From a virus, in the IMG/VR virus record IMGVR_UViG_3300025732_000279, positions 1 to 22,979 of that record: a stretch of DNA of 22,979 nt; one strand, 5' to 3'. Of the stretch, positions 7,471 through 21,344 are shown piece by piece. Numbering within the stretch: position 1 is the first letter of the stretch; each line of letters opens with the position of its first letter. The notes beneath the pieces are model-generated. The model was not told where the DNA came from. It did no database searches and saw only the letters and a program-made list of their open reading frames with translations. Made by a program: the position numbers and the translations under genes.

Positions 7471-9534
7471 ATGCCTATCTCGTCTGGTCTGTACGACACA
7501 TCGACGCTGACATACGACACGGCTTCACGTTCGTATGACGGCTACGACGCACCGCTGGCAAACCTGCCTTCGGTCGGTGTGTTCATCGCATGGACTGACA
7601 CGCCCTACACAGTCTCGCCAGCATGGACAGAAATAAGCCAGTACGTCAGGCAGATCAGTATCCGTCGCGGTAGGCAAGACGACCTGCAACAGTTCGGCCC
7701 GGGTACAGCCTCGCTGGTACTGGACAACCGTGACAGGTTGTTCGACCCCTTCAACAGTTCGGGTGCGAACTACGCCAACCTGAAGCCACGCAAGCAAGTG
7801 AAGATCGTGGCGAACTGGAACGGTACAGAGTACCCGTTGTACCGGGGTTACGTCTCTGGCTGGCCTGTGGAATATACAGACGGTGGACTTGATTCCACGG
7901 TGACCATTGAATGTATTGACTTGATGGCGTTGATGGCGCGTGAAGTCTCTGCAAGTTCGTACTGTGAGGACTACACGCTGTCCCTAAATCCGACCGTGTT
8001 TATTCGCATGGCGCAACTGTCTGGCACATACAAGGATTCAACAGTCGGCACTTACACTCGTCGCTACTACGGGCTTGACACGGTAGTCAACAATTCCAAG
8101 TGGCAACCCAACCCGGCGGTAAGTAGCGGAACGACAAAATTGGATGCGTTTGTTATGTCGGTGATGATCAACGACAGCACCTCTGGCGCACAGGTCGGTT
8201 CGGTATCGCAGGTCAATTCAACCGCAGACGGTATTCTTACGCCTGCTCTGCAAGTGAGCGCGAACGCTGGTGTTGCTAATGCGCTTGGCGATCCGACCGC
8301 AACCGTTGCTGGTGGCTCGTTCACGTTCTCTTGTTTCGCGTCAATCTCTGGCACGTTCACAACGTCTGTCGGCATTCTGAACTGGGCCCCATCGCTCGCA
8401 CCGAAGATTTACGTTTATTCACCTACGAACACAACTGTTGCTGGGAAGATCGAAGTGTATTCGTACACGACCGCTGGCGTATTCTGGGGCGTACCTACAA
8501 CGAAGCGCATGATGGATGAAGCGGTACACCATTACTGCTTCGTCGTTGATGCTTCAGCATCGGTGCAATACATGTATCTGGATGGCGAACTGATCGGTTC
8601 GCAGGCGTACACAGGTACGTTGGCAACGTCGAACTTCACACAGTTGGGTGGCGGTAGTGTCGGCGCGGCTGGCAACATCACCTTTCAACACATGGCATGG
8701 TGGGAAGGTCGTGCGCTATCGGCAACTGAAGTGGCGACTATCTCGCGTTTCGGGCTGAACTACTACGACCAGCCTGCTGCTGACCGCGCACAGTTCTACT
8801 TGAACCAGACAACCGTACCGTCTGGGCTATACAACATTGACAGCCAAATGTCGTCGCGTGTCGCGGAATACCAGTTGAACGCCCAACCGATCCTGCCAGA
8901 ACTGCAACGCCTGACCGCAGGCGATGACGGTGAAATGTACGTTGACCGTGCAGGTATTCTGCAACTGGTTGACGGTAACCAATACTTCAATTCGTCACGC
9001 TCTAATACTTCGCAGATGACGTTCACCGATTCTGGTACTGGGATCGGCTACGACGCTGACGGTATCCGTCTCACATTGACTGCCGATCAGGTGCGTAACA
9101 CGGTGGTTGTTACCGGGTCGCGTGACTTCCAAGCGACCACATCTGATGCGACTTCAATCGCCACCTACGCTGACGCTGCCGAAAACATCGAAACCCGTCT
9201 GGCGACTGCGACGGATTGCAGCACTTTGGCGAGCAGGGTTCTGTCCATCTACAAGAACCCGAAGATGCAGATAGAACCGTTCATGTCGAAAGGTCAGGCG
9301 AACCCGTCTTACAACTGGCCTCGCCTGCTTGCGCTGGAACTGCTTGACCGTGTGACGTTCAAGAGGACACCTAGCGTCGGGTCTGCGATACAGAAGGATT
9401 TGTTGGTGCAAAGTATTGAACACAGGATTACGCCGGGGGAGTGGCAGACTGTGGTGAATGGTTCGACCCGTTACACGGGCTGGTTTATTATTGGCGTTTC
9501 GCTGATCGGTTCAAGTGAGGATGTGCTTTTGTAA
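7471..9534 (+). CDS. Minor tail protein / tail hub with LamG-like domain
   Basis: A 687-aa protein starting at ATG 7471. The N-terminal part (about residues 30-170) has the hub/distal-tail signature of actinophage minor tail proteins: 'W.eIs.yVR.I.I.RGR.D.L..F..G.a.l.LDNRDr.FDP' followed by 'p.r.vki.a.w.g..y.LyrGyv'. Residues about 283-430 form an inserted beta sandwich of the concanavalin/LamG type ('HHYCFVVDASASVQYMYLDG', then 'MAWWEGRALSATEVATI'), usually carbohydrate-binding. The rest (LQRLTAGDDGEMYVDRAG and onward) is the second hub half. It probably closes the tail tip and contacts the cell surface. Its stop overlaps the next gene by one base (TAATG). Confidence 0.8.
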   Translation: MPISSGLYDTSTLTYDTASRSYDGYDAPLANLPSVGVFIAWTDTPYTVSPAWTEISQYVRQISIRRGRQDDLQQFGPGTASLVLDNRDRLFDPFNSSGANYANLKPRKQVKIVANWNGTEYPLYRGYVSGWPVEYTDGGLDSTVTIECIDLMALMAREVSASSYCEDYTLSLNPTVFIRMAQLSGTYKDSTVGTYTRRYYGLDTVVNNSKWQPNPAVSSGTTKLDAFVMSVMINDSTSGAQVGSVSQVNSTADGILTPALQVSANAGVANALGDPTATVAGGSFTFSCFASISGTFTTSVGILNWAPSLAPKIYVYSPTNTTVAGKIEVYSYTTAGVFWGVPTTKRMMDEAVHHYCFVVDASASVQYMYLDGELIGSQAYTGTLATSNFTQLGGGSVGAAGNITFQHMAWWEGRALSATEVATISRFGLNYYDQPAADRAQFYLNQTTVPSGLYNIDSQMSSRVAEYQLNAQPILPELQRLTAGDDGEMYVDRAGILQLVDGNQYFNSSRSNTSQMTFTDSGTGIGYDADGIRLTLTADQVRNTVVVTGSRDFQATTSDATSIATYADAAENIETRLATATDCSTLASRVLSIYKNPKMQIEPFMSKGQANPSYNWPRLLALELLDRVTFKRTPSVGSAIQKDLLVQSIEHRITPGEWQTVVNGSTRYTGWFIIGVSLIGSSEDVLL

Positions 9535-20082: not shown

Positions 20083-20511
20083 ATGAAACGTCTTATCGCT
20101 GTTCTATTTGCCGTATCTGCTTTGACCGCTACACCTGTGGGGGCTGCTGATGCGCCTGCGTGGGTGGTCAAGAAATACAACGAGGGTTCACGCTGCAAAA
20201 AGTGGGAACCGCTGTTCAAGCAACACGGTCTGCCCGTCGTGCTGTTCTCGTACATTTCGTTTCGGGAATCACGGTGCCGACCGGGTGCGGTGAATGCCAA
20301 GTGGCGTGACGGCAAGATCGTCTGGACTCTCAACAAGAACGGGACATACGACAGCGGCATTTTGCAGATCAACTCATCGTGGCGAACGGTCACCCGCAAC
20401 GTTTGTGGCGGTGGGCTGGATCGCCTGTTTGACCCGGTATGCAACGTCAAGGTGGCTGCGTTCCTGTACCATGACAGCGGGGCAGGCCATTGGGGATTCA
20501 AGGGGTACTAA
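20083..20511 (+). CDS. Sec-exported lysozyme/transglycosylase-like protein
   Basis: A 142-aa protein, ATG 20083, with GAAGGAAG upstream. The signal peptide is MKRLIAVLFAVSALTATPVG with cleavage after A21 (VGA|AD) likely. The mature part has the lysozyme-like fold pattern: LFSYISFRESRCRPGAVN with E62 as the candidate catalytic acid, then YDSGILQINSSWR (residues 89-101), the block that lines the active cleft, and HWGFKG at the end. Four cysteines (38, 65, 108, 120) fit disulfides outside the membrane. It should cut glycan strands of host peptidoglycan from the outer side. It lies in the early region, 8 kb from the endolysin, so it may not be the main lysis enzyme. Confidence 0.8.
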   Translation: MKRLIAVLFAVSALTATPVGAADAPAWVVKKYNEGSRCKKWEPLFKQHGLPVVLFSYISFRESRCRPGAVNAKWRDGKIVWTLNKNGTYDSGILQINSSWRTVTRNVCGGGLDRLFDPVCNVKVAAFLYHDSGAGHWGFKGY

Positions 20512-21344
20512 TGAAGGGGCAACTCACCGTTGGCAGTTTGTTCAGCGGTATCGGCGGTCTTGATCTAGGTCTAGAACGCGCAGGGATGAAAGTGATTTGG
20601 CAATCTGAAATTGACCCGTATGCGTGTCGCGTATTGGCAAAGCATTGGCCTGAAGTGGAGAATCATGGAAACATCAAACACATTCAATGGGGAAACGTTG
20701 TTCGACCTGACATTATTTGTGGGGGATACCCCTGCCAGCCCTTCAGCACCGCAGGCAAGCGAGCAGGCGAAGCAGATGAACGGCACCTTTGGCCCTACGT
20801 CAGAGATGCCATTAGCCACCTTCGACCCCGATACGCGATCTTGGAAAATGTGCGGGGCCATCTCTCTTTGGGAGGAACAACAGTTATTGGAGAACTTGCC
20901 GCCATCGGGTATGACGCGGAATGGCGTGTTATTTCCGCAGCCAGCGTGGGTGCCAACCACCGACGCGACCGAATCTTCATTGTGGCCTACCCCAACGGTG
21001 GACGACTCAAAGAACGTTTACCCGAAGCCGAATCGGATTCGCGGCCTTGTAGCAGCGGTCAACGATTCGGTAGCGATGTGGCCGACACCACGGGCAGGGT
21101 CGATGTGCGGTGGGACAGGCTCGGCGGGGAAGATCGAAGACAGGTATTTGGATGGGACAATTACGAGCGAGGAACGTCAGGCCATGCGGTCGGGGAATGG
21201 TGGCAAGTTGAACCCCGAATGGGTCGGGTGGCTGATGGGGTTTCCGCCCGGGTGGACAGACTTAGAGGACTAGGGAACGCGGTGGTTCCGCAGGTCGCTG
21301 AAACGGTCGGCAGGCTGGTTGTAGCCCATTGGGAAGGCTTGTAG
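20511..21344 (+). CDS. dcm-like: DNA (cytosine-5-)-methyltransferase
   Basis: A 277-aa protein, ATG 20511 (TAATG overlap with the lysozyme stop, AAGGGG upstream). The motifs in order are: I, SLFSGIGGLDLGLERAG (9-25); IV, GGYPCQPFS with catalytic C75; VI, LENVRG with E112; VIII, HRRDRIFIVAYP with R152 and R154; X, GLGNAVVPQVAE at the C-terminus. The target-recognition part between VIII and X is short (about 85 residues). It moves a methyl group from S-adenosylmethionine to C5 of cytosine. No restriction enzyme lies nearby, so it probably protects phage DNA from host restriction. About 600 bases of this gene also encode another protein in the +1 frame (20665-21273). Confidence 0.93.
   Translation: MKGQLTVGSLFSGIGGLDLGLERAGMKVIWQSEIDPYACRVLAKHWPEVENHGNIKHIQWGNVVRPDIICGGYPCQPFSTAGKRAGEADERHLWPYVRDAISHLRPRYAILENVRGHLSLGGTTVIGELAAIGYDAEWRVISAASVGANHRRDRIFIVAYPNGGRLKERLPEAESDSRPCSSGQRFGSDVADTTGRVDVRWDRLGGEDRRQVFGWDNYERGTSGHAVGEWWQVEPRMGRVADGVSARVDRLRGLGNAVVPQVAETVGRLVVAHWEGL
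20665..21273 (+). CDS. Protein fully overlapped by the methyltransferase gene (+1 frame)
   Basis: A 202-aa frame beginning METSNTFNGETLFDL at ATG 20665, with GGAG four bases upstream. It is open through to 21273. Recognisable blocks are GDTPASPSAPQASEQAK, SEMPLATFDPDTRSW, SGMTRNGVLFPQPAWVP, ESSLWPTPTVDD and LNPEWVGWLMGFPPGWTD. From memory, the same blocks occur in independent proteins encoded near phage methyltransferase genes ('SG..r.G...p...pPt...ES..WPTPt...g...LNP.WVEWLMGFP.GWTdL'). They are the alternate-frame reading of methyltransferase motifs IV, VI-VIII and the pre-X region. Function unknown; a modification-linked role is inference. The frame could also be a by-product of methyltransferase conservation. 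Confidence 0.5.
   Translation: METSNTFNGETLFDLTLFVGDTPASPSAPQASEQAKQMNGTFGPTSEMPLATFDPDTRSWKMCGAISLWEEQQLLENLPPSGMTRNGVLFPQPAWVPTTDATESSLWPTPTVDDSKNVYPKPNRIRGLVAAVNDSVAMWPTPRAGSMCGGTGSAGKIEDRYLDGTITSEERQAMRSGNGGKLNPEWVGWLMGFPPGWTDLED

Follow-up and report, generated by a model that had tools for sequence, protein, structure and literature searches.

A putative two-subunit C5-cytosine DNA methyltransferase of the M.EcoHK31I type, very probably made from two overlapping frames of one phage gene

The small subunit of the C5-cytosine DNA methyltransferase M.EcoHK31I is reportedly read from an alternative frame inside the gene of the large subunit, as described by Lee, Kam and Shaw in 1995. M.EcoHK31I (recognition sequence YGGCCR; isoschizomer M.EaeI) consists of two polypeptides, of which the large one carries motifs I-VIII and X and the small one carries motif IX (PMC3404938). 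M.AquI (CYCGRG) is also built from two polypeptides, with IX and X together in the small one (PMC3404938). Here, we describe a phage locus that we consider very likely to encode a heterodimeric methyltransferase of the M.EcoHK31I type from two overlapping frames of one mRNA, named alpha (frame 0) and beta (+1 frame), with assembly and separate initiation of the two chains being the putative parts of this reading.

The window, meaning the whole stretch of 22,979 bases analysed from an IMG/VR virus record, is a fragment of a tailed phage, with genes for tape measure, head-tail and replication initiation proteins as well as RecE and Erf. At its left end, beside the head-tail genes, positions 61-1559 show a weak glycosyltransferase-like match and a match to an NAD-dependent sugar epimerase (PF01370), and positions 7471-9534 encode a candidate receptor-binding protein, large and of structural appearance, in which a concanavalin A-like lectin domain is matched (PF13385, E=2e-6). 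Directly upstream of alpha, a small gene (20083-20508) has a signal-like N-terminus and matches the transglycosylase SLT domain (PF01464, E=4e-5); its product is probably a phage lysis or entry enzyme. The features of the alpha chain are the following, with motifs I to VIII placed by alignment to M.HhaI:

20500..20505, plus strand: probable ribosome-binding site of alpha (AAGGGG), read from the sequence, 5 nt upstream of the ATG at 20511
20511..21344, plus strand: alpha subunit, a C5-cytosine DNA methyltransferase chain of 277 aa starting at ATG 20511, with motifs I, IV, VI, VIII and X present and motif IX absent
20535..20570, plus strand: alpha motif I (SLFSGIGGLDLG), outside the overlap
20721..20747, plus strand: alpha motif IV (GGYPCQPFS, with the catalytic Cys), whose +1 reading is DTPASPS of beta; alpha is the leading frame here
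20844..20852, plus strand: alpha motif VI (ENV)
20949..20990, plus strand: alpha motif VIII (GANHRRDRIFIVAY)
21267..21302, plus strand: alpha motif X (GLGNAVVPQVAE), with a helix (residues 260-276) predicted with high confidence; contains the beta stop at 21271-21273

The original prediction had assigned the zero frame to a C5-methyltransferase, and this assignment is borne out by matches to Pfam PF00145 (E=1.3e-43), phrog_363 (4e-82) and M.HhaI (4.9e-18), with motifs I, IV (PCQ), VI (ENV), VIII and X lying on an AdoMet-dependent fold. The predicted structure of alpha is confident for residues 1-164 and for the motif X helix, and disordered for residues 165-245 (pLDDT about 45). Compared with the fold of M.HhaI, the large domain of the model is matched at 1.7 A over 164 aligned columns of the 327-residue chain, that is, about half of it. 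A recognition domain and motif IX between VIII and X in a single chain were not found in alpha, as residues 165-245 are predicted to be disordered and IX lies in the +1 frame. According to this model, alpha is a chain lacking the small domain (recognition segment plus motif IX). In the +1 frame, the features are as follows:

20657..20660, plus strand: GGAG, Shine-Dalgarno-like, 4 nt upstream of the beta ATG
20665..21273, plus strand: putative beta subunit of 202 aa in the +1 frame, nested in alpha, with ATG at 20665 and stop at 21271-21273; matches phrog_1008 'DNA methyltransferase' (E=3.9e-32)
20665..20967, plus strand: beta N-half, overlapping alpha motifs IV-VIII, with the predicted hairpin TFDPDTRSWKM and SGMTRNGVLF; alpha leads
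20968..21207, plus strand: beta middle, the presumed target-recognition segment with WPTP blocks; beta leads, and the alpha reading is a spacer predicted to be disordered
21208..21261, plus strand: beta motif IX (LNPEWVGWLMGFPPGWTD), read as VEPRMGRVADGVSARVDR in alpha; in frame with motif X in some relatives

A 202-codon +1 open reading frame (ORF) with its own ATG and GGAG, as described in the original prediction, is thus present, within a frame that stays open for 225 codons from stop to stop. The PHROG 1008 profile match covers residues 12-160 of the product. The beta sequence itself found no match in Pfam, NCBIfam or the PDB; Pfam hits of beta and of its relatives were weak and inconsistent, and a PDB profile search with beta returned only low-complexity apolipoprotein matches, which were taken as noise. 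Predicted alone, beta folds poorly (pLDDT 64, pTM 0.26), and such a low-confidence model might be expected for a subunit that folds on its partner.

The original prediction had left two outcomes for this ORF, either an overprinted gene conserved as a real protein or a whole database family that is a frame echo, in which the resemblance in +1 merely mirrors a conserved methyltransferase read out of frame, without any beta being made. Loci were collected twice, starting from beta and then from alpha alone, since the first collection selects on beta. In the beta-started set, all 170 classified loci carry beta in the +1 frame of a methyltransferase. In the alpha-started set, the +1 frame, for which stop codons in relatives had been named as a refuting sign, stays open in 80 of 80 loci, each time with a match to beta, and the +2 frame mostly shows runs of around 50 codons. 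We then compared the real sequences with shuffles in which the alpha protein and its codon usage were fixed and synonymous codons were permuted. In the window, 200 shuffles gave a mean of 4.0 stops over the 225 codons and none was stop-free; at the level of loci, about 4 stops per locus are expected in the overlap under shuffled codons, where the real +1 frame has none.

Profile scores were compared in the same way. The +1 product of the window reached 246 bits against a profile built without close relatives, with a mean of 105 and a maximum of 140 for the shuffles. For the scoring of loci, the beta profiles omitted relatives at 45% identity or more, and in 159 of 159 loci real beta scored higher than any of the 60 shuffles, with a median of 219 vs 86 bits. 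The 86 bits retained by the shuffles are a genuine frame echo, which by itself supplies some 40% of the match score (about 90 of 220 bits), and the concern about an echo in the original prediction was thus a reasonable one. One relative, L277, shows what echo looks like by itself: its 320-codon +1 ORF over the methyltransferase (1306-2265) is equalled in score by 77 of 200 shuffles, a pure frame echo in GC-rich DNA.

As controls, the alpha part before beta shows no signal in the shuffle test (9/108), and the +2 frame is not depleted of stops (13.65 vs 12.67). The +2 score also exceeds the shuffles, and for this reason the score alone does not prove a coding frame, whereas stops and codon positions do. 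An excess in a non-coding frame is expected for any double constraint on DNA, including one that acts on the DNA or RNA itself (RNA structure or a binding site) and not through a second protein; we regard this explanation as extremely improbable, given that stop depletion is restricted to the +1 frame and that the substitutions within the motif IX block track the codon positions of beta.

The original prediction had also proposed a check of synonymous-site constraint. In pairs of alpha proteins that are 50-80% identical, we compared fourfold codons for the same residue; their identity was 0.34 before beta, 0.53 in the first half of the overlap, 0.88 in the second half and 0.31 after the beta stop. 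Synonymous sites are therefore strongly constrained inside the overlap, and both frames are under protein-level selection. Echo exists, as the shuffled translations and L277 demonstrate, but as the sole cause it is ruled out for the family by the synonymous shuffles, the stop counts, the codon positions and the synonymous constraint, together with the lead that beta takes between VIII and X (see below), and its probability as an explanation of the locus is negligible. The same evidence upholds the first outcome, an overprinted gene conserved as a real protein, and overturns the second for the family as a whole; the precedent of M.EcoHK31I had been missing from the original prediction.

To establish which frame leads along the gene, one frame was fixed and the other was scored in bits per residue above echo. 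Over motifs IV-VIII, alpha scores 1.06 and beta 0.40, although the beta N-half still exceeds echo in 119 of 120 loci; over the VIII-X spacer the order is inverted, with 0.76 for beta and 0.20 for alpha. In the LNPEWVGWLMGFPPGWTD block, for which the position table is reliable (that for the VIII-IX region rests on an uncertain alignment), the most variable base is the third position of beta (0.33, vs 0.17 at the third position of alpha), and just past the beta stop the third position of alpha is again the most variable (0.63). The lead is thus held by alpha through motif VIII, by beta through the recognition block and motif IX, and by alpha again for X. As the variable base of the block lies at the beta third position and beta leads the spacer, the alpha reading VEPRMGRVADGVSARVDR is mostly echo and LNPEWVGWLMGFPPGWTD is no out-of-frame reading of a conserved enzyme motif. 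The original proposal that the conserved +1 blocks are shifted enzyme motifs therefore holds for GGYPCQPFS, read as DTPASPS, and for GYDAEWRVIS, read as SGMTRNGVLF, and fails for LNPEWVGWLMGFPPGWTD, which is a methyltransferase motif IX in its own right.

We next considered how beta and alpha are arranged in relatives. Among 439 loci, a number that exceeds the independent cases as the same contigs recur between fetches, 402 are nested as in the window. In about 16, beta is present and alpha lacks motif X (some of these are truncated at contig ends), and in 11, motif IX lies in alpha and the +1 frame retains the beta N-half. These loci include at least 346 distinct alpha proteins from many phyla and from phages, and in a tree of 54 representatives the nested loci are spread over many phyla, with other designs arising several times among them. 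Beta without a methyltransferase was found in 0 of the 439 loci, and it scored apart from alpha in one only (L256, Mycobacterium phage Llama, where alpha itself is split between two ORFs), contrary to the earlier expectation of blocks typical of free-standing proteins found beside methyltransferases; the search for free-standing homologues that had been suggested came back empty over this set. The Llama methyltransferase (1041-1956) is spread over two ORFs that differ in frame, each of them annotated as a DNA methylase, and is either a decayed gene or a real split.

The position of the motif IX block differs between these designs. In L251, L244 and L248, the block LNPDWVEWLMGYPISWTD stands in frame 0 directly before motif X (with 1-2 differences in L244 and L248). 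In L105, L158, L257, L258 and L261, alpha stops just after VIII and the +1 chain comprises the recognition segment (TRD), IX and X, an arrangement seen in Mycobacterium phages Dylan and Phonnegut and in Arthrobacter phage Eesa. As the same block occurs directly before X in frame 0, or with X in +1 chains, the end block of beta falls at the position of motif IX, and the beta C-terminus, as read from these sequences, is motif IX. The beta middle, judged by its position, is probably the recognition segment; single-chain enzymes of the Gordonia phage Lennon type have a frame 0 counterpart of the WPTP beta middle between VIII and X. One locus with motifs I-VI and the beta C-half in one ORF (L082) has the look of a frameshift in the contig and was not counted among natural fusions.

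The loci in which IX and X follow alpha in one +1 chain would also suit programmed ribosomal frameshifting, in which ribosomes slip from alpha to +1 after motif VIII and produce a fused chain with TRD and IX, as a single slip would there yield a complete enzyme. In the window, ribosomes would have to slip twice, in opposite directions, to come back to motif X; moreover, the ATG of beta is conserved and has a Shine-Dalgarno-like site, and the part of beta over IV-VIII, upstream of any useful slip site, is the N-half conserved above echo in nearly all loci. Because of this conservation and of the two slips required, we judge frameshifting to be unlikely.

Single-chain loci bear on a different alternative, namely that the overlapping beta protein is no subunit but has another task, for example inhibiting host restriction or regulating the methyltransferase. 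A short +1 ORF exceeds echo in 7 of 8 of these loci, L277 being the exception, and single-chain methyltransferases with a short +1 beta N-half (SGMTRNG block) above echo are found in L259 (1537-1836), L270 (1360-1758), L272 (1405-1677) and L295 (1794-2195). The N-half thus survives where TRD and IX have moved into alpha and may have a function of its own, which the two-subunit model alone does not explain. As an account of the whole of beta, a separate job is nevertheless improbable, given that motif IX is in beta and absent from alpha, that beta never occurs without alpha in the loci collected, and that known two-polypeptide methyltransferases divide their motifs in the same manner (PMC3404938).

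We therefore prefer the two-subunit enzyme. In this proposed mechanism, alpha would provide the AdoMet-binding catalytic large domain (motifs I-VIII and X), which would bind the flipped cytosine, and beta would contribute the small domain missing from alpha, with motif IX and, probably, the recognition segment. Beta would be translated from its own ATG and Shine-Dalgarno-like site within the alpha coding sequence; a separate start is probable, since the aligned ATG is closely preceded by GAGG in most close relatives. The two chains would then assemble into one enzyme, both being needed for activity, and the assembled enzyme may methylate phage DNA, most plausibly protecting it against host restriction.

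At the level of the family, we lean towards viewing nested beta as an old design, frequent among the C5-methyltransferases of phages and bacteria and mostly absent from annotations, in which the recognition/IX block moved repeatedly between frames (nested in beta, in beta with X, or back in alpha) and in which the beta N-half, kept in +1 beside otherwise complete single-chain enzymes, has its own function. What looks new is the breadth, with about 346 distinct alpha proteins, and the repeated moves of the IX block between frames; a literature search on nested or internal methyltransferase genes found no description of either, a weak negative as most subscription papers lay outside the search.

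In this way, an oddity known from biochemistry would become a gene design of wide distribution. It is rare for gene pairs on the same strand to be fully nested and conserved across phyla, and here one enzyme appears to be split over two frames, with the lead switching along the gene. Several records annotate alpha only, in which case cloning from the annotation, or recoding, would abolish beta and probably leave the enzyme inactive, and studies of phage methylomes and anti-restriction could be misled. In Salmonella phage W5_chr3 (L254, 1183-2112), the annotation is the reverse: the +1 beta ORF is listed, as a 'putative Mte8-like protein', and the catalytic alpha chain has no annotation at all. 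The locus also serves as an example for telling an overprinted gene from a frame echo, the echo here being strong enough for a significant profile match.

Comparison with known systems places the locus as follows. PHROG 1008, which beta of the window matches, is labelled DNA methyltransferase, a label that conceals its being the +1 product and not the catalytic chain. In Paenibacillus phage Shelly, gp56 ('g55 internal gene') is an annotated nested ORF at the same place inside a methyltransferase, called hypothetical and given no function. M.AquI resembles these loci as a split C5-methyltransferase, among them relatives such as Dylan and L105, whose alphas end after VIII and whose second chain carries IX and X; the five loci of the L105 arrangement share with it a small chain holding both IX and X, whereas the window has its motif X in alpha and a beta that lies entirely within alpha. 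The likeness to M.EcoHK31I consists in I-VIII and X in the large chain and IX in a second chain. The gene for the small chain of the window sits inside that for the large chain, in another frame, as is reportedly that of M.EcoHK31I, the two being likened by motif layout. They differ in that M.EcoHK31I has its recognition domain in the large subunit (PMC3404938), whereas the alpha spacer of the window is predicted to be disordered and the recognition block is apparently in beta. The window gene also lies in a phage, and no restriction enzyme was noticed beside it. In conclusion, by analogy of motif layout, the locus most likely belongs to the M.EcoHK31I kind, which has been known since 1995.
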